The notes under the pieces: generated by a model
What the model was told of the DNA's origin: nothing
The model's database searches: none
Seen by the model: the letters and a program-made list of their open reading frames with translations, nothing else
Translations under genes and position numbers: made by a program
Shown here: piece after piece, positions 23,525 through 32,679 of the stretch
Position numbering within the stretch: position 1 is the first letter of the stretch
Layout: each line of letters opens with the position of its first letter
Source: Polaromonas sp.
GTDB lineage: Bacteria > Pseudomonadota > Gammaproteobacteria > Burkholderiales > Burkholderiaceae_C
DNA: 64,000 nt
NCBI GenBank assembly: GCA_013823635.1
Contig: PNML01000006.1
Location: forward strand, 1-64,000
Direction: 5' to 3'

Positions 23525-23548
23525 TTCAATGATTGTTGAAACATTGAA
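23525..23548 (+). promoter_or_regulatory. Inverted repeat upstream of arsI, probable ArsR operator
   Basis: TTCAAT (23525-23530) and ATTGAA (23543-23548) form perfect arms 12 bases apart. They lie 20 bases before the arsI start and just downstream of AT-rich sequence suitable for a -10 element. ArsR repressors bind imperfect inverted repeats of about this size, but the assignment is inference. Confidence 0.5.
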
Positions 23549-23567
23549 ATGATCAGGAGCACACCCC

Positions 23568-24185
23568 ATGAAACGCTTTCACGTTCACCTGCATGTGGCC
23601 GATCTGGCCGCCAGCCTGGCCTTTTACAACCGCCTGTTTGCCGCCGAGCCCGCCCGGGTGGAGGCTGACTACGCCAAGTGGATGCTGACCGACCCGCCGC
23701 TGAACTTTGCCATTTCCACCCGGGGCAGCCAGCCGGGGCTGGACCATTTCGGGTTTCAGGTGGACCAGGCCGAGGAGCTGGCCGCCCTCAAGGCCCAGGC
23801 ACAGGCCGCCGACATGGCCCTGCTGGACGAGGGCGAAACCACCTGCTGCTACGCCCGCAGCGACAAATACTGGGTGACCGACCCGCAGGGCGTGGCCTGG
23901 GAGCAGTTCCACACGCTGGACACCATCCCCACCTTCAGCGAAGCAACTTCAACGCCACACATGCCGCCAGCCCAGAGCTGCTGCGCGCCCACTGCACCTG
24001 ATGTGGCAGCCCAGTCAGCGGGCTGCGGCACTGCTGAGCAGCCAGCGGCCTCTGCGGGTGGCTGCTGTCCCCCAGCCAAAACCGCCGCCACGGGAGGCGG
24101 TTGCTGCGCTCCCGTCAAGCCAGCGGCGCCTACTGGTGGCTGCTGCGGCCCCAGCGCATCCAGCACCAAAGCGGGCTGCTGCTGA
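23568..24185 (+). CDS. arsI: ArsI/CadI family C-As lyase with a Cys-rich tail
   Basis: ArsI is an Fe(II)-dependent vicinal-oxygen-chelate dioxygenase that cleaves the carbon-arsenic bond of trivalent organoarsenicals. The 205-residue protein has the VOC domain (about residues 1-120), with likely metal ligands in FHVHLHV, LDHFGFQV and WEQFH. The substrate-binding Cys pair is in TTCCYARSDKY (Cys93-Cys94). An unusual tail of about 75 residues carries 11 Cys, mostly as CC pairs in SCCAP, GGCCPP, GGCCAP, GGCCGP and AGCC. The stop overlaps the arsR start (TGATG). A pure CadI (cadmium) role is less likely given the ars neighbours. Confidence 0.88.
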   Translation: MKRFHVHLHVADLAASLAFYNRLFAAEPARVEADYAKWMLTDPPLNFAISTRGSQPGLDHFGFQVDQAEELAALKAQAQAADMALLDEGETTCCYARSDKYWVTDPQGVAWEQFHTLDTIPTFSEATSTPHMPPAQSCCAPTAPDVAAQSAGCGTAEQPAASAGGCCPPAKTAATGGGCCAPVKPAAPTGGCCGPSASSTKAGCC

Positions 24186-24547
24186 TGGCCGACACCCCCC
24201 TCGCCACCCCTGACAGCATCGCCCACCTGGACGCCGTGCGGGCACTGGCCGCGCTGGCGCACGACGCGCGGCTGGCCGTGTTCAAGCTGCTGGTGCAGGC
24301 CGGGCCTGAGGGCCTGCCCGCCGGTGCGCTGGCCGAGCAGTTGGCCGTGGCCCCGTCGGCCCTGTCGTTTCACCTGAAAGAGCTGACGCATGCGGGGCTG
24401 CTGGCGCAGCGCCCCGATGGCCGCAAAGTCATGTACAGCGCCAACTTCGCCACCATGAACCAGCTCATCGCCCACCTCACCGACAACTGCTGCCAGGGTG
24501 CGCCCTGCGCGGTGGCCGTGCCCGCCACCGTGTGCTGCACCGACTGA
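24185..24547 (+). CDS. arsR: Arsenic-responsive repressor ArsR
   Basis: This is a winged-helix ArsR/SmtB repressor of 120 residues. The recognition helix region is APSALSFHLKELTHAG, with the wing around RPDGRKVMYS. The As(III) site is not in the helix but at the C-terminus: DNCCQGAPC, followed by a final VCCTD. This CC-plus-C arrangement resembles the C-terminal sensors such as the Acidithiobacillus ArsR. The start at 24185 overlaps the arsI stop by one base, so arsI and arsR are coupled. It likely represses the operon through the inverted repeat at 23525-23548. Confidence 0.93.
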   Translation: MADTPLATPDSIAHLDAVRALAALAHDARLAVFKLLVQAGPEGLPAGALAEQLAVAPSALSFHLKELTHAGLLAQRPDGRKVMYSANFATMNQLIAHLTDNCCQGAPCAVAVPATVCCTD

Positions 24548-24589: not shown

Positions 24590-25087
24590 ATGGGCCACCA
24601 GACTTACAACATCCTGTTTCTGTGTACCGGCAACTCCGCCCGCAGCGTGCTGGCCGAGTCGCTGATGAACGCGCTGGGCAACGGCCGGTTCCGGGCGTTT
24701 TCGGCCGGCAGCCACCCGGCGGGGGCCGTCAACCCGTTTGCACTGGCGTTTTTGCAGGCCAACGGCTTGCCCACCGAGGGGCTGAGGAGCAAGTCGTGGG
24801 ACGAATTTGCCGCCCCCGGTGCGCCGGTGATGGACTTCATCATCACCGTGTGCGACCAGGCTGCCGGTGAGGTGTGCCCTTTGTGGCCCGGCCAGCCCGT
24901 GTCTGCCCACTGGGGCGCACCCGACCCGGCTGCCGTGGTGGGCAGCGACGCGGACAAGCACCGGGCCTTCAAGGACACGGCCACCCTCATGCGGCGGCGC
25001 ATCGAGCTGTTTCTGTCGCTGCCGCTGGCCTCGCTGGATGGCCTGGCGTTGACATCCGCGATGAAGTCCATCGGAGCGTCGGCATGA
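24590..25087 (+). CDS. arsC: Arsenate reductase, low-molecular-weight phosphatase type
   Basis: It reduces arsenate to arsenite so that Acr3 can export it. The 165-residue protein has the CX5R loop of the LMW-PTP fold (FLCTGNSARSVLAE, Cys15). It also shows SAGSHPAG, the VITVCDQAA segment with a redox Cys, and CPLWPG. The end of the gene overlaps acr3 (ATGA at 25084). A short upstream gap after arsR holds an AAGGA site. The last 25 residues are less conserved. Confidence 0.93.
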   Translation: MGHQTYNILFLCTGNSARSVLAESLMNALGNGRFRAFSAGSHPAGAVNPFALAFLQANGLPTEGLRSKSWDEFAAPGAPVMDFIITVCDQAAGEVCPLWPGQPVSAHWGAPDPAAVVGSDADKHRAFKDTATLMRRRIELFLSLPLASLDGLALTSAMKSIGASA

Positions 25088-26172
25088 GCGTCCAGTGTGA
25101 AGTGACGGCCAAGCGCGCTGCGGGTTCTGTGGCGGCTGCGCCCATGAGCGTGTTCGAGCGCTACCTGACGGTGTGGGTGTTTCTGTGCATCGTGGCAGGC
25201 ATTGCACTGGGCCAGCTGGCGCCCGGCGTGTTTCAGGCCGTGGGCCGCATGGAGGTGGCACAGGTCAACCTGCCCGTGGGCCTGCTGATCTGGGTCATGG
25301 TCATTCCCATGCTGGTGAAGGTGGACTTTGGCGCCTTGGGCCAGGTGCGCCAGCACCTGCGGGGCATTGGCGTGACGCTGTTCGTCAACTGGCTGGTCAA
25401 GCCGTTTTCCATGGCGTTTCTGGGCTGGCTGTTCATTCGGCACCTGTTTGCCGACTGGCTGCCCGCCGACCAGCTCGACAGCTATGTGGCCGGCCTCATC
25501 CTGCTGGCCGCTGCACCCTGCACGGCCATGGTGTTTGTGTGGAGCCGCCTGACCGGGGGCGACCCGCTGTTCACCCTGAGCCAGGTGGCGCTGAACGACG
25601 CCATCATGGTGGTGGCCTTTGCACCGCTGGTGGGCTTGCTGCTGGGGCTGTCGGCCATTGTGGTGCCATGGGCCACGCTGGTGACGTCGGTGGTGCTGTA
25701 CATCGTCATCCCCGTGGTGCTGGCGCAGTGGCTGCGCAAGGCGCTGCTGCAAAAAGGGCAGGCCGCCTTTGACGCAGCCATGGCCCGGCTGGGTCCCTGG
25801 AGCATGGCGGCGCTGCTGGTGACGCTGGTGCTGCTGTTCGCCTTCCAGGGTGAAGCCATCCTGGCGCAGCCGCTGGTGATTGCGCTGCTGGCCGTGCCCA
25901 TCCTCATCCAGGTGCTGTTCAATTCGGGCTTGGCCTACTGGCTCAACCGCGCCGTGGGCGAAAAGCACAGCGTGGCCTGCCCCTCCGCGCTGATTGGGGC
26001 CAGCAACTTCTTTGAACTGGCCGTGGCCGCCGCCATCAGCCTGTTCGGCTTCAACTCCGGCGCGGCACTGGCCACCGTGGTGGGTGTGCTGATTGAGGTG
26101 CCGGTGATGCTGCTGGTGGTGCGCGTGGTCAACCAGAGCAAGGGCTGGTACGAGCGCGGTGCCCAGGCGTGA
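25084..26172 (+). CDS. acr3: Arsenite exporter Acr3
   Basis: This is an inner-membrane permease of the BASS superfamily that extrudes arsenite. The 362-residue protein has about ten transmembrane helices. Key residues of the family are present: the Cys in AAPCTAMVFVW (fourth helix) and the acidic residue in GVLIEVPVMLLVV (ninth helix). The N-terminal 20 residues before MSVFERYLTVW are extra, and a start at the second Met is possible, although the ATGA overlap with arsC favours 25084. A short AT-rich terminator-like stem follows at 26180-26209. Confidence 0.94.
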   Translation: MSVQCEVTAKRAAGSVAAAPMSVFERYLTVWVFLCIVAGIALGQLAPGVFQAVGRMEVAQVNLPVGLLIWVMVIPMLVKVDFGALGQVRQHLRGIGVTLFVNWLVKPFSMAFLGWLFIRHLFADWLPADQLDSYVAGLILLAAAPCTAMVFVWSRLTGGDPLFTLSQVALNDAIMVVAFAPLVGLLLGLSAIVVPWATLVTSVVLYIVIPVVLAQWLRKALLQKGQAAFDAAMARLGPWSMAALLVTLVLLFAFQGEAILAQPLVIALLAVPILIQVLFNSGLAYWLNRAVGEKHSVACPSALIGASNFFELAVAAAISLFGFNSGAALATVVGVLIEVPVMLLVVRVVNQSKGWYERGAQA

Positions 26173-26275: not shown

Positions 26276-26701
26276 ATGACTAAGATCACCATCTACCACA
26301 ACCCCAAATGCGGCACCTCGCGCAACGTGCTGGCCCTCATCCGCAACACCGGCGTCGAGCCCGAGGTGGTGGAATACCTCAAAACCCCGCCCGGCAAACA
26401 GCGCCTGACCGAGCTGGTGGCCGCCACCGGCCAGGGTGCCCGCGCACTGCTGCGCGAGAAGGGCACGCCCTATGCCGAGCTGGGGCTGGACCAGCCCCAC
26501 TGGAGCGACGAGCAGCTGATCGACTTCATGGTCGCACACCCCATCCTCATGAACCGCCCGCTGGTGGTGACCGAGCTGGGCACCCGCCTGTGCCGCCCCT
26601 CAGAAGCCGTGCTCGACATCCTGCCCCTGCCGCAGCTGGGCGCACTGGCCAAGGAAGATGGCGAGCAGGTGGTGGGTGCGGATGGGCAGCGGGTGAGGTG
26701 A
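26276..26701 (+). CDS. arsC: Arsenate reductase, glutaredoxin-coupled ArsC family
   Basis: This is a second arsenate reductase, of the E. coli plasmid R773 type (glutathione/glutaredoxin-dependent). The 141-residue protein has the active-site motif HNPKCGTSRNVLA (Cys12), Arg in LLREKGTPY and the MNRPLVV segment. It is distinct in fold from the LMW-PTP enzyme upstream, so the cluster carries both chemistries. Alternatively it is a YfgD/Spx-like family member, but length and the KCGTSRN motif favour ArsC. No clear ribosome site precedes the ATG, because the repeat element abuts it. Confidence 0.85.
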   Translation: MTKITIYHNPKCGTSRNVLALIRNTGVEPEVVEYLKTPPGKQRLTELVAATGQGARALLREKGTPYAELGLDQPHWSDEQLIDFMVAHPILMNRPLVVTELGTRLCRPSEAVLDILPLPQLGALAKEDGEQVVGADGQRVR

Positions 26702-27340: not shown

Positions 27341-28285
27341 ATGCACCGCCGCCACCTGTTCCATGCCCTGGCCCGCACCGCTGCCCTGGTGGGCACGCTG
27401 GCTCTGGCCACCGCCGCCCATGCCCTGAACATTTCCTTCCAACCCGTGGCCCCCAACGTATATGCGTACGTGGGCGACACCGAAGGCCGCACTTATGAGA
27501 ACGAAGCGCTCAACGCCAACATTGGCCTGGTGGTCACCCCCGCCGGGGCGGTGCTGATAGACCCCGGTGCCACCTACCGAACCGGCGCGACCATCGCCGC
27601 CGCTGCCCAACAAGTGAGCAACCAGCCCATCAAATGGGTCATCAACACCGGGGGCCAAGACCACCGCTGGCTGGGCAATGGCTACTTCAAGGCGCAGGGC
27701 GCTGACATCATTGCCCACGCCAACGCCCAGGCCGACATGCAAGCCCGCGGCCCCGAGCACCTGCGCGCCAACGCCCCGGTGCTGAAAGACAAACAAGACG
27801 GCACCGTGCCCGTGTACGCCACCCGCTGGCTGCAAGGCCCTGACAACACGCTGGAGCTGGGCGGCGTGAAGCTGCAATTTATCCACCGCAATGGCGGGCA
27901 CACGCCTGGCGACATGCTGGTGTATTTGCCCGCGACGGGCGTGGTGTTCACGGGGGATGTGGTCTACACCGACCGCATTTTGGGCTTGCACCCGGTGAGC
28001 AAAACCAAAACCTGGGTGGCCAGCTTTGAGGCGCTGGAGGCGCTCCAACCCAAGGTGGTGGTGCCCGGCCATGGCCGCGTGACCACCTTGGCCCAAGCCC
28101 AGCGCGACACCGGCAACCTGCTGCGGGCCTTGCGCGCCCACATGGGCAAGGCCGTGGAGGCGGGCACCGACATCGGCACCGCCGTCAAAACCTTTGACGC
28201 CACACCCTTCAAACACCTGCAGCACGTGGACGTGTGGCTGCCCCAACTGGCCAACCTCACCTACCTGGAGATGGAGCAGGAGTGA
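27341..28285 (+). CDS. Exported MBL-fold metallo-hydrolase with a degenerate metal motif
   Basis: The 314-residue secreted protein has a signal peptide (ARTAALVGTLALATAAHA). It has an MBL-type alpha/beta core: LVVTPAGAVLIDPG, then GGHTPGDMLVY, VFTGDVVYTDRILGL and VVVPGHGRV. The first metal motif, normally HxHxDH, is replaced by NTGGQDHRW near residue 102, so two of the usual His ligands are missing while the later His and Asp remain. It resembles SoxH-like proteins; activity is uncertain. A 48-base remnant of a relative lies at 54573-54620. Confidence 0.85.
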   Translation: MHRRHLFHALARTAALVGTLALATAAHALNISFQPVAPNVYAYVGDTEGRTYENEALNANIGLVVTPAGAVLIDPGATYRTGATIAAAAQQVSNQPIKWVINTGGQDHRWLGNGYFKAQGADIIAHANAQADMQARGPEHLRANAPVLKDKQDGTVPVYATRWLQGPDNTLELGGVKLQFIHRNGGHTPGDMLVYLPATGVVFTGDVVYTDRILGLHPVSKTKTWVASFEALEALQPKVVVPGHGRVTTLAQAQRDTGNLLRALRAHMGKAVEAGTDIGTAVKTFDATPFKHLQHVDVWLPQLANLTYLEMEQE

Positions 28286-28551: not shown

Positions 28552-28767
28552 AGCACCACGAGGAGGGCCGGGGGCGGTTGGCGAGGGGTGAACCGTGGGG
28601 TGTCGTCCATCGGCCGGGTCGGTAACGGCCTGACCCTGCTTCTGCGGCCTGGCGTGAACCGCGTGCACAAGCCGCCCATCTGGGCCGCAGGCGCCGTCCA
28701 CACCACGGTCACCGCACTCTGCATCAGGCCCAACCCGGCTCCCCCCGCCTGTCTATCATTGCGCGCC

Positions 28768-31700
28768 ATGGGAGCCACACAAAAAGCCACCACCACCGCC
28801 GCCCACGCCGCTGGCGTGCCTAACCACCCAACTGCGGGCCACACGGCCCCCCACGCGCCCGGTGACGACGCCATTGCCGCCTTCATTGGCAAGTGGCAGG
28901 GCGTGCAAGCCAGCGAGTTGTCCACCGCGCAAAGCTTCGTCAACGACCTGTGCGACCTGCTGGGTCAACCCCACCCGCACCCCACGCCCGAGCAGGCCTA
29001 CATGTTTGAGCGGCCCATCACCTTCTTGCATGGCGACGGCAGCAGCAGCGCCGGGCGAGTGGACTGCTACAAGCGCGGCCACTTTGTGCTCGAGGCCAAA
29101 AAACTCAAGGCCGCCAGCCATACCAAAGGCTTTGACGACGGTTTGCTGCGCGCCCGCAGCCAGGCGGAGGCCTACGCCCGGGCACTGCCCGCCGCCGAAG
29201 GCCGCCCACCCTTTGTGCTGGTGGTCGATGTGGGCACCGTCATCGAGGTGTATGCCGAGTTCAGCCGCAGCGGCGGCACATACACCCCTTTCCCTGATGC
29301 CCGCAGCCACCGCCTGACTCTGGCCGACCTGCACCGTCCCGAGGTGCGAGAGCGGCTGCACGCCATCTGGGCCGCGCCAGACAGCCTGGACCCCGCCCGC
29401 CGCAGCGCCCAGGTCACCCGCGACGTGGCCGCGCTGCTGGCCAAGCTGGCCAACAGCCTGGAGCGGCGCCACCCGCCCGAGCAGGTGGCTGCCTTTCTCA
29501 CCCGCTGCCTGTTTTCCATGTTTGCCGAAGATGTGGGTCTGCTGCCCGCCATGGGTGATGGCATCGGCCCCTTTGTGGGTTTGCTCAAAAACCACTGCCA
29601 GCGCCCGGAAATACTGCAGAAAATGCTCTCCATTTTGTGGGCCGACATGGACCGTGGCGGCTTTTGCGCGGCGCTGACCGAAGACGTGCTGCGCTTCAAC
29701 GGCAAGCTCTTCAAGGGCCACGGCACCGACGGCTACAGCCTGCGCCTGGAGCCCGCCGAGACCGACTTGCTCATCCAGGCGGCCAAAGCCAACTGGCGCG
29801 AAGTGGAGCCCGCCATTTTTGGCACCCTGCTGGAGCGGGCCCTGCACCCTGCCGAGCGCCACGCCTTGGGCGCGCACTACACCCCCCGGGCCTATGTGGA
29901 GCGGCTGGTGTTGCCGACCGTCATACAGCCGCTGCGCGCCGAGTGGGCCAATGCCCAGGCCGCTGCCTTGGTGCTGGCGCAACAGGCCGCAGAGCTGGAG
30001 GCCCAAGTTCCGGCCATGCCCACGCTGCCCGCCAACGCCGCCAACCTGGGTCAGGCCGAAACGGCGGCGCTCACGGCGGCTAACCGGCGCGCCATGCAGG
30101 CCCGTACCAAGCACCTGGCTGAGGCCGAAGCCCTGCGCAAGCAGGCGCTGGGTCACATCAAGGCTTTTCACCACCGCTTGTGCACGCTGCGCGTGCTGGA
30201 CCCAGCCTGCGGCAGTGCCAATTTTCTGTACGTCACGCTGGAACACCTCAAGCGCCTGGAGGGCGAGGTGCTCACCCAGGCCGAAGACTTGGGCGGTGCC
30301 CAGGGCAAGCTGGCGCTGGAGGCCGAGTCCGTCACTGTCAAGCAGTTGCTGGGCATTGAGTTGAACCCCCGCGCCGCAGCCCTGGCCGAGCTGGTGCTTT
30401 GGATAGGCTGGCTGCAGTGGCACATCCGCACCCGTGGCAACGCTGCCGTGGCCGAGCCCGTGGTGCACGACTACGGCAACATCCAGTGCCGCGACGCCGT
30501 GCTAGCGTGGGAGCGCCAGGAGCTGGCCCTCGATGCACACGGCAAAGCCCTCAGCCGCTGGGACGGCACCACCTTCAAACCCCACCCGGTGACCGGCGAG
30601 CCCGTGCCCGACGAAGCCGCCCAAGTGCCCCAGTGGCGCTATGTGGGGGCCCAAGCCGCCGAGTGGCCGCAGGCCGAATTCATCGTGGGCAACCCGCCGT
30701 TCATTGGTGCCTCAGCCATGCGTGCCGCCTTGGGAGATGGCTATGTGCAAGCCCTGCGCGCGGCCTGGCCCAGCGTGCCCGAGAGTGCCGACTTGGTGAT
30801 GTTCTGGTGGTCAAAAGCCGCTGCCTTGGTCGGGGCGGGGCAGTGCGAGCGCATGGGGCTCATCACCACCAACAGCCTGCGCCAAACGTTCAACCGGCGG
30901 GTGGTGCAGGCGGCGCTTGATGGGTCATTGGCGGGCACCGGGGGCGGCGCCAGCGCGGGCGGCTCGGGCCTCATACCCGCTGCGCGGCCCAAATCGGCCC
31001 AACCCGCCCCCGCTGTCGCCACCCCCGGTTCTGGCGCGGAGGGTGGGCATGCGGTGGGGTCCGAGATCAATTCGCCTGTTTCGCCTGTTTCGCCCGCCGT
31101 GGCTGGCTTGCGCCCGGTGCATTTGGCCTTTGCCGTGCCTGACCACCCGTGGGTGGACGGTGCCAACGGTGCCGCCGTGCGCATTGCCATGACCGTGATG
31201 GCACCCGGTGCCAGCGAAGGGCGGATGTTGAGCGTCACCGCCGAACAGCCCGGTGAACACGGTGAAGTGGCCGTGGCGTTGTCCGAGCGCTCTGGCCTGG
31301 TGCATGCCGACCTGAGCGTGGGGGCCAATGTGGCCGCCGCCCACACCCTGCAAGCCATGGGCGGCGTGTCGTCGCCCGGCGTCAAGCTGCACGGCGCGGG
31401 CTTCATCGTCACGCCCGAGGAAGCTGCCGCGCTGGCCGCCCCCACGCTCATCAAGCCCTACCGCAACGGGCGCGACCTGACCGACAAACCCCGAGGTGTG
31501 AGCGTGATCGATGCGTTTGGTTTGACTGCCGATGAGTTGCGCACCCAGCACCCCGCCGTGTACCAGTGGTTGCTGGAGCGGGTGAAGCCCGAGCGCGACC
31601 AGAACAACCGAGCCACCTACCGCGACAACTGGTGGATATTTGGCGAGCCGCGCCGGGAATTGCGGCCAGCCTTGGCAGGCCTGCCCCGCTACATCGCCAC

Positions 31701-32679
31701 CGTCGAAACCGCCAAGCACCGCACCTTCCAGTTCCTGCACGCCAGCATCCTGCCCGACAACATGCTGATTGCCATTGGCCTGCCAGAGGCCTTTCACCTG
31801 GGCGTGCTCTCCAGCGAACTGCATGGGCAATGGGCGCTGGCAACCGGTGGCACGCTGGAGGATCGGCCGCGTTACAACAAAACCCGCTGCTTCGAAACCT
31901 TCCCCTTCCCCGACGAATTCACGGGCCTCACCCCCACGCTGCGCGAGCGCATCGCCAACCTGGCCCAGCAGATCGACGACCACCGCAAACGCGTGCTGGC
32001 CACACCCGGCGCGCCGCGCGACCTCACGCTCACCAACCTCTACAACGTACGCGAAGCCCTGCGCGCTGCTCGGCCACTGACCGACAAAGAAAAAGCCATC
32101 CACACCACCGGCCTGGTGGGCGTGCTGCACCAACTCCACACCGAGCTGGACGCCGCCGTGCTGGCCGCCTACGGCTGGGCCGACCTCGCCCCCGGCTTGG
32201 CCGCCACCCCCGGCACGCCAGCCCACACCGCCGCCACCGCCGAACTGCTGCAACGCCTGGTGGCCCTGAACGCCCGCCGCGCTGCCGAAGAAGCCCAGGG
32301 CACGGTGCGCTGGCTGCGCCCAGATTTTCAGAATCCGACCCAGAATGCATCAAAAATCGGCCAAAAACAAGAGCAAACAACGACTGAAATTCATGCGGAA
32401 GATGCCCATGAAGCTGATGAAATATCAGCTCAAAACCATAGCGCCACACCCCTGCCCGTGGCGACCCAACCCTGGCCAGCCACCTTGCCCGAACAGGTGC
32501 ACGCCGTGGCCCAGGCGCTGGCGGCCAGCCCCGTGCCGCTGACGCTGGAGGCGTTGGCCGCCCGCTTCAAAGGCAAAGGCCCCTGGAAAAAGGCCTTGCC
32601 CACGCTGCTGCAAACCCTGCACGTGCTGGGGCGTGCCCAGCCGGTGCAAGGGGGGGAGGGTGAGTTGTGGCGGACATAG
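28768..32679 (+). CDS. Single-polypeptide restriction-modification enzyme (type IIL/IIG, MmeI-like)
   Basis: The 1303-residue protein would both cut and N6-adenine methylate DNA. An N-terminal PD-(D/E)XK nuclease is visible as GRVDCYKRG...LEAKK near residues 98-112. A helical linker follows, then the methyltransferase with motif I VLDPACGSANF (about residue 477) and catalytic NPPFIG (about 641), then a target-recognition region and a C-terminal helical tail. A low-complexity insert (residues about 721-781) interrupts the usual core, and 32325-32450 is AT-richer than the rest. The ATG at 28768 fits the family N-terminus; the frame is open back to a GTG at 28588. No separate methylase or specificity gene is next to it. 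Confidence 0.85.
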   Translation: MGATQKATTTAAHAAGVPNHPTAGHTAPHAPGDDAIAAFIGKWQGVQASELSTAQSFVNDLCDLLGQPHPHPTPEQAYMFERPITFLHGDGSSSAGRVDCYKRGHFVLEAKKLKAASHTKGFDDGLLRARSQAEAYARALPAAEGRPPFVLVVDVGTVIEVYAEFSRSGGTYTPFPDARSHRLTLADLHRPEVRERLHAIWAAPDSLDPARRSAQVTRDVAALLAKLANSLERRHPPEQVAAFLTRCLFSMFAEDVGLLPAMGDGIGPFVGLLKNHCQRPEILQKMLSILWADMDRGGFCAALTEDVLRFNGKLFKGHGTDGYSLRLEPAETDLLIQAAKANWREVEPAIFGTLLERALHPAERHALGAHYTPRAYVERLVLPTVIQPLRAEWANAQAAALVLAQQAAELEAQVPAMPTLPANAANLGQAETAALTAANRRAMQARTKHLAEAEALRKQALGHIKAFHHRLCTLRVLDPACGSANFLYVTLEHLKRLEGEVLTQAEDLGGAQGKLALEAESVTVKQLLGIELNPRAAALAELVLWIGWLQWHIRTRGNAAVAEPVVHDYGNIQCRDAVLAWERQELALDAHGKALSRWDGTTFKPHPVTGEPVPDEAAQVPQWRYVGAQAAEWPQAEFIVGNPPFIGASAMRAALGDGYVQALRAAWPSVPESADLVMFWWSKAAALVGAGQCERMGLITTNSLRQTFNRRVVQAALDGSLAGTGGGASAGGSGLIPAARPKSAQPAPAVATPGSGAEGGHAVGSEINSPVSPVSPAVAGLRPVHLAFAVPDHPWVDGANGAAVRIAMTVMAPGASEGRMLSVTAEQPGEHGEVAVALSERSGLVHADLSVGANVAAAHTLQAMGGVSSPGVKLHGAGFIVTPEEAAALAAPTLIKPYRNGRDLTDKPRGVSVIDAFGLTADELRTQHPAVYQWLLERVKPERDQNNRATYRDNWWIFGEPRRELRPALAGLPRYIATVETAKHRTFQFLHASILPDNMLIAIGLPEAFHLGVLSSELHGQWALATGGTLEDRPRYNKTRCFETFPFPDEFTGLTPTLRERIANLAQQIDDHRKRVLATPGAPRDLTLTNLYNVREALRAARPLTDKEKAIHTTGLVGVLHQLHTELDAAVLAAYGWADLAPGLAATPGTPAHTAATAELLQRLVALNARRAAEEAQGTVRWLRPDFQNPTQNASKIGQKQEQTTTEIHAEDAHEADEISAQNHSATPLPVATQPWPATLPEQVHAVAQALAASPVPLTLEALAARFKGKGPWKKALPTLLQTLHVLGRAQPVQGGEGELWRT
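31071..31097 (+). repeat. Three tandem 9-bp units in the RM gene
   Basis: TTCGCCTGT is repeated twice and followed by the variant TTCGCCCGC, encoding a Ser-Pro-Val type repeat within the insert of the RM enzyme. As the unit is a multiple of three, copy-number change would alter length without breaking the frame. Confidence 0.7.

Follow-up and report, generated by a model that had tools for sequence, protein, structure and literature searches.

ArsI enzymes degrade organic arsenicals, both methylated and aromatic, among them residues of herbicides and feed additives. The known enzyme is an O2-dependent Fe(II) enzyme, described as active in monomer form, in which a Cys pair forms the substrate-binding site; MAs(III) and phenylarsenite are bound tightly, As(III) hardly at all (PMC12607644). 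The ArsI proteins of Bacillus sp. MD1, Thermomonospora curvata and Nostoc sp. PCC 7120 share with the gene described here the VOC domain, the Cys pair, the Fe(II) positions and the ars operon. Moreover, the Nostoc protein, which is experimentally active, ends in KSCCA (translated here from the cloning primer in PMC5258700) and is likewise CC-tailed, whereas the crystallised T. curvata constructs carry no tail. The CadI (Rv2641) branch of mycobacteria and their relatives falls under the same NCBIfam model and shows about 29–40% identity to our protein over the match; the actinobacterial relatives examined have tails with one or two CC pairs, and arsI in this branch often lies divergent from arsR, unlike in our locus.

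The gene lies in the window, by which we mean the whole 64,000-nucleotide stretch of Polaromonas sp. DNA analysed here. Its catalytic part comprises the following features.

23568..24185, + strand: arsI, open reading frame with stop codon for a 205-aa ArsI/CadI family C-As lyase (NF041414 profile ArsI_CadI_VOC, 133.5 bits against a curated cut-off of 116; T. curvata ArsI (TcArsI) structures)
23568..23909, + strand: VOC (glyoxalase/dioxygenase-fold) catalytic domain, residues 1–114, with metal triad H5, H60 and E112 by alignment
23844..23849, + strand: catalytic vicinal pair C93–C94, invariant in relatives; the equivalent pair is the substrate site in known ArsI (PMC12607644)

Judged by its sequence, the gene encodes a genuine ArsI C-As lyase whose VOC domain is complete. 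Alongside the profile score, the T. curvata structures align to residues 1–114 with an E value of about 5e-22. The Fe(II) ligands of Bacillus ArsI, H5, H62 and E115 (residue roles from PMC12607644), correspond to H5, H60 and E112, and neither these residues nor C93–C94 vary in alignments of 16 and of 50 relatives. Within the genus, dN/dS values of 0.04–0.25 indicate purifying selection on the catalytic domain. The sequence-only reading, which had named the gene ArsI and judged that the domain around C93–C94 looked complete, is supported on both counts. Beyond the domain, the protein continues into a Cys-rich tail.

23958..24182, + strand: tail rich in Cys and in Ala, Pro, Gly and Ser, residues 131–205, predicted unstructured
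23979..23984, + strand: tail pair 1, C138–C139 (SCCAP), the family-conserved first pair in an alignment of 50 relatives
24024..24026, + strand: C153, lone Cys of a putative decayed sixth unit (codons TGC GGC)
24063..24068, + strand: tail pair 2, C166–C167 (GGCCPP)
24102..24107, + strand: tail pair 3, C179–C180 (GGCCAP), 39 nt past pair 2
24141..24146, + strand: tail pair 4, C192–C193 (GGCCGP), 39 nt past pair 3
24177..24182, + strand: terminal tail pair 5, C204–C205, at the protein end, the family-conserved last pair (at least 90% in the 50 relatives)

The eleven cysteines counted earlier in the last 75 residues are all present, as these five CC pairs and the single C153. The pairs had been described as GGCCxP repeats, which is literally so for three of them; the first reads SCCAP and the last closes the protein. 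Among the 50 relatives C139 of the first pair is invariant and C138 is conserved in at least 90%. In three relatives (L134, L136 and L137) a CC pair starts at position 153, where the window reads TGC GGC, so C153 seems to be what remains of a unit after one base change removed its second Cys. Cysteine makes up 1.4% of residues in the plausible genes of the window, giving a binomial P of about 7e-9 for 11 in 75 residues, and the second-highest count per 75-residue stretch in the window's genes is 7. Moreover, the Cys codons across the tail units vary silently, with TGC and TGT interchangeable. These statistics, the silent codon variation and the conservation rule out chance or a wrong reading frame.

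Pairs 166, 179 and 192 are spaced by 13 residues, and the units at 166 and 179 share 56% of their nucleotides and 62% of their residues. Tandem Repeats Finder detected no tandem repeat in the window and found only a 45-nt tandem in one genus member (L133; 79% matches), where it is still recognisable. The window's units therefore appear old and diverged, and a recent DNA minisatellite is ruled out. AlphaFold2 assigned the tail a pLDDT of about 35–44 and no secondary structure. Since the whole model is weak (mean pLDDT 53.5), no fold search was based on it, and it served solely for the lack of predicted structure in the tail. Searched alone, the tail found no relative in Pfam beyond a chance match to DnaT (E 0.096) and none in the PDB, and no solved structure with an ArsI tail was found. 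A foreign Cys module acquired by or fused to this gene is ruled out, because nearly all relatives carry the tail and it has no matches outside ArsI. A phage origin is likewise ruled out, with no match among phage records.

The tail is therefore real, but it is not peculiar to this gene: it is family-wide and its length alone is unusual, which the sequence-only reading missed. In a sample of the window's taxonomic family, 122 of 301 genomes hold an ArsI above the NF041414 cut-off. From loci of that family, of the phylum and of named genomes we assembled 204 distinct ArsI in which the catalytic Cys pair is intact, a set strongly biased towards Burkholderiales. At least one tail CC pair is present in 203 of these: 16 have one, 118 two, 54 three, 6 four, 7 five, 1 seven and 1 eight. 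Within the 204 tails, 97% of the cysteines belong to pairs: there are 488 of these, where shuffled tails give about 80, beside 32 lone Cys, and no run of more than two Cys occurs. The residues xP follow the pair in 245 of the 488 cases, in 189 of the 204 proteins the terminal CC is followed by one final residue or none, and the first pair mostly starts 18–25 residues beyond position 114. One or two tail pairs are found in ArsI encoded on plasmids of Priestia, Paenibacillus, Cytobacillus, Streptomyces, Rhodococcus, Mycobacterium, Gordonia and Leptolyngbya, so that the CC tail extends beyond the window's own phylum to Bacillota, Actinomycetota and Cyanobacteriota. Absence of the tail from functional relatives, which had been named as an outcome that would speak against a role for it, was not what we observed, given these 203 proteins and the active Nostoc enzyme.

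The sole ArsI of the 204 without a tail pair (L215) looks like a deletion into arsC or an assembly error, because its tail region continues into arsC-like sequence (KAYSAGSSP). VOC paralogs from three same-family genomes that carry arsI (L123–L125), two of them at most about 3 kb from arsI, have neither the catalytic pair nor a tail pair. Two ArsI-like frames that have lost active-site features (L159 and L160) also have no tail pairs and look like decayed or divergent arsI copies; in them CCQ or CCH replaces CCY, and residues near the metal-ligand Glu are altered. None of ten other VOC matches in the window's genome contains a CC pair, some of the frames read being simply the longest, with the VOC frame uncertain. 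The catalytic pair and the tail pairs co-occur, and the CC tail is general in the ArsI family.

Within the genus, ArsI is present in 6 of the 8 genomes examined, with 3, 4, 5, 5, 7 and 8 tail pairs; L136 (three) and L134 (eight) are the natural extremes. The catalytic domains of the five other genus members are 86–89% identical to that of the window, and in L134 the 13-residue pair spacing holds for the greater part of the tail. In a domain tree built on few columns, the genus is recovered as a supported group (98). On the same few columns, parsimony gives ten changes for the state of four or more pairs, three of which well-supported branches make unavoidable, and similar expansions appear to have arisen independently elsewhere. 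What is special in the window's ArsI is pair copy number: it is a quantitative variant of a known enzyme with a family-wide tail. The comparison of ArsI lengths suggested earlier sets it apart as longer, at 205 aa and five pairs, where other ArsI usually have one to three pairs and a length of about 135–180 aa, although the tail itself is common. The literature searched, whose reach ended short of the original ArsI papers, held no mention of tail expansion or tail function.

The genes downstream form an ars operon in the order arsI-arsR-arsC-acr3-arsC.

23525..23550, no strand assigned: ArsR-operator-like TTCAA...TTGAA repeat 5′ of arsI (matches at 23525–23540 on the + strand and 23533–23548 on the − strand)
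24185..24547, + strand: arsR, overlapping the arsI stop (TGATG), with a C-terminal CCx4C like a type 2 As(III) site
24590..25087, + strand: LMWP/thioredoxin-type arsC, below the NCBIfam cut-off and above the Pfam LMWPc cut-off
25084..26172, + strand: acr3, arsenite efflux permease (TIGR00832, 388.7 bits), start inferred from relatives
26276..26701, + strand: glutaredoxin-type arsC (TIGR00014, 141.8 bits, over the cut-off), start inferred

The order arsI-arsR-arsC-acr3 is shared by the window and 4 of the 5 other genus members, G211/L015 being the one that differs, and the TGATG overlap of the arsI stop with the arsR start is found in all six. Unlike in the window, arsI lies between arsR and arsC in 155 of the collected loci. 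The TTCAA...TTGAA pattern, picked after viewing the sequence, occurs 3 times in the window, where 0.16 matches are expected, and 4 of the 5 genus members have a similar element ahead of arsI. The suggestion that the tail is metal-responsive found no support, and the adjacent arsR is a simpler sensor within the operon. ArsR of Acidithiobacillus (AfArsR) has a C-terminal type 2 As(III) site (PMC4287715); the end of the window's ArsR (NCCQGAPC...VCCTD) resembles such a site and carries one more CC pair close to its terminus. In another genus member (L273, G304 contig C326, 1204–3294) an ArsP_1-family permease gene and a gene similar to the MBL-fold hydrolase of the window follow the ars genes. 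The window retains that hydrolase gene (27341–28285), and no ArsP_1 gene was found in its genome, which is 86.6% complete. Further downstream, a 1363-residue frame (28588–32679) with the DNA-methyltransferase-like motifs DPACGSANFL and NPPF may encode a restriction-modification or BREX-type enzyme.

As(III) species with a single substituent take two thiols as ligands, and each CC pair of the tail would offer a two-thiol site fit for monosubstituted trivalent arsenicals, R-As(SR)2. We favour, with confidence near the middle of the scale, the reading that a disordered two-thiol arm captures methylarsenite-type substrate and relays it to C93–C94, and that tandem duplication has lengthened this arm, because the CC pairs are two-thiol sites, known ArsI prefers MAs(III) and phenylarsenite, and MerA offers a precedent. 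In the latter, Hg(II), a thiophilic metal, is handed to the active-site Cys by a Cys pair on a flexible C-terminus (PMC4500099). MerA is a functional analogue only: it differs from ArsI in fold and reaction, has a single pair and delivers across the dimer, whereas ArsI is described as active as a monomer (PMC12607644). The flexible C-terminal arm of the window's protein would be an enlarged form of the arm seen in nearly all ArsI, with the first and last CC pairs as anchors and extra pairs inserted between them by tandem duplication as units of about 13 residues. Such an arm would draw methylarsenite or aromatic As(III) species out of the cytosol and pass them by thiol exchange to C93–C94 beside the Fe(II), raising the local substrate concentration and buffering free arsenical; extra pairs would add capacity.

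Of this scheme, the analysis shows the identity of the enzyme, the family-wide conservation of the pairs, their co-occurrence with the catalytic pair, the repeat expansion and the disorder prediction; the ligand, the relay to the active site and the benefit of more copies are what we infer. The earlier proposal that the tail might hold arsenicals near the active site seems chemically sensible and fits the joint presence of catalytic and tail pairs. It counts against the relay that As(III), Cd or Hg might occupy the CC pairs just as well. The T. curvata ArsI chains that were crystallised comprise 123–126 residues and end before the tail position, being too short to include one, so the tail is dispensable for the fold and possibly also for turnover in vitro.

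A metallothionein-like buffer, in which the tail would mainly sequester the arsenite product or soft metals such as Cd and provide capacity until export by ACR3, seems to us somewhat unlikely. The copy number, varying from 1 to 8 like a dosage trait, the position of arsI within an efflux operon with acr3 and arsC, and the link of the mycobacterial CadI branch to cadmium by name all fit such a buffer. However, most relatives have just two pairs, which would buffer little on an enzyme made in catalytic quantities, and the strict CC pairing suits two-thiol ligands over arsenite; arsenite prefers three thiols. Bacterial metallothioneins resemble the tail in having many Cys in a low-complexity chain, but the tail matches no metallothionein family, and its cysteines stand in CC pairs and are joined to an enzyme. 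Disulfides between adjacent cysteines, as in a CC pair, are strained, and the tail has no known redox CxxC motif. Both points weigh against a protective or redox role, which we regard as decidedly unlikely; here the tail would shield the Fe(II) site or C93–C94 from oxidation or off-target arsenic adducts, or act as a mixed-disulfide site for glutathione or glutaredoxin. In its favour, tail pairs co-occur with the catalytic pair and ArsI needs O2 and Fe(II) (PMC12607644).

Rapid change in copy number counts against the relay, since the extra copies could then have arisen by slippage in a disordered tail and be close to neutral, function being confined to the first and last pairs. The fast shifts within the genus, the recognisable 45-nt tandem of L133 and the apparent decay of the window's own C153 unit agree with this, but the pairs are kept across units despite DNA divergence (a conservation partly ascertained, because the units were picked by their CC), lone cysteines are few beside the pairs in the family count (32 against 488) and the expansions appear repeated independently. 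We consider near-neutral copies unlikely.

In Acidovorax delafieldii 2AN (L183:3001–4074), arsI with a five-pair tail continues into an LMWP-type arsC as one 358-residue frame. The start codon of this arsC is missing, and in related genomes a few bases separate the two genes. As the record is a draft contig, the joined frame may be a sequencing error. A wider and rather doubtful interpretation is that the ArsI tail is a family-wide arsenical-relay module with a copy number tuned by evolution, that the ArsI of the genus would be an enzyme with a multi-site chaperone, and that the Acidovorax linker suggests arsenic channelling from one detoxification step to another. Moreover, the reverse primer for Nostoc ArsM (PMC5258700) reads ...HYNGGGCC, the same terminal CC motif with a single pair in a different enzyme and in one example, and another arsenic enzyme may therefore share the CC tail.

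In summary, the ArsI enzyme is already known, and its marked tail expansion was not met in the literature searched. The solved ArsI structures that we found lack the tail, though nearly all natural ArsI surveyed carry one. The genus offers a ready natural series (3, 4, 5, 5, 7 and 8 pairs) for measuring the role of the tail and the effect of its dose.
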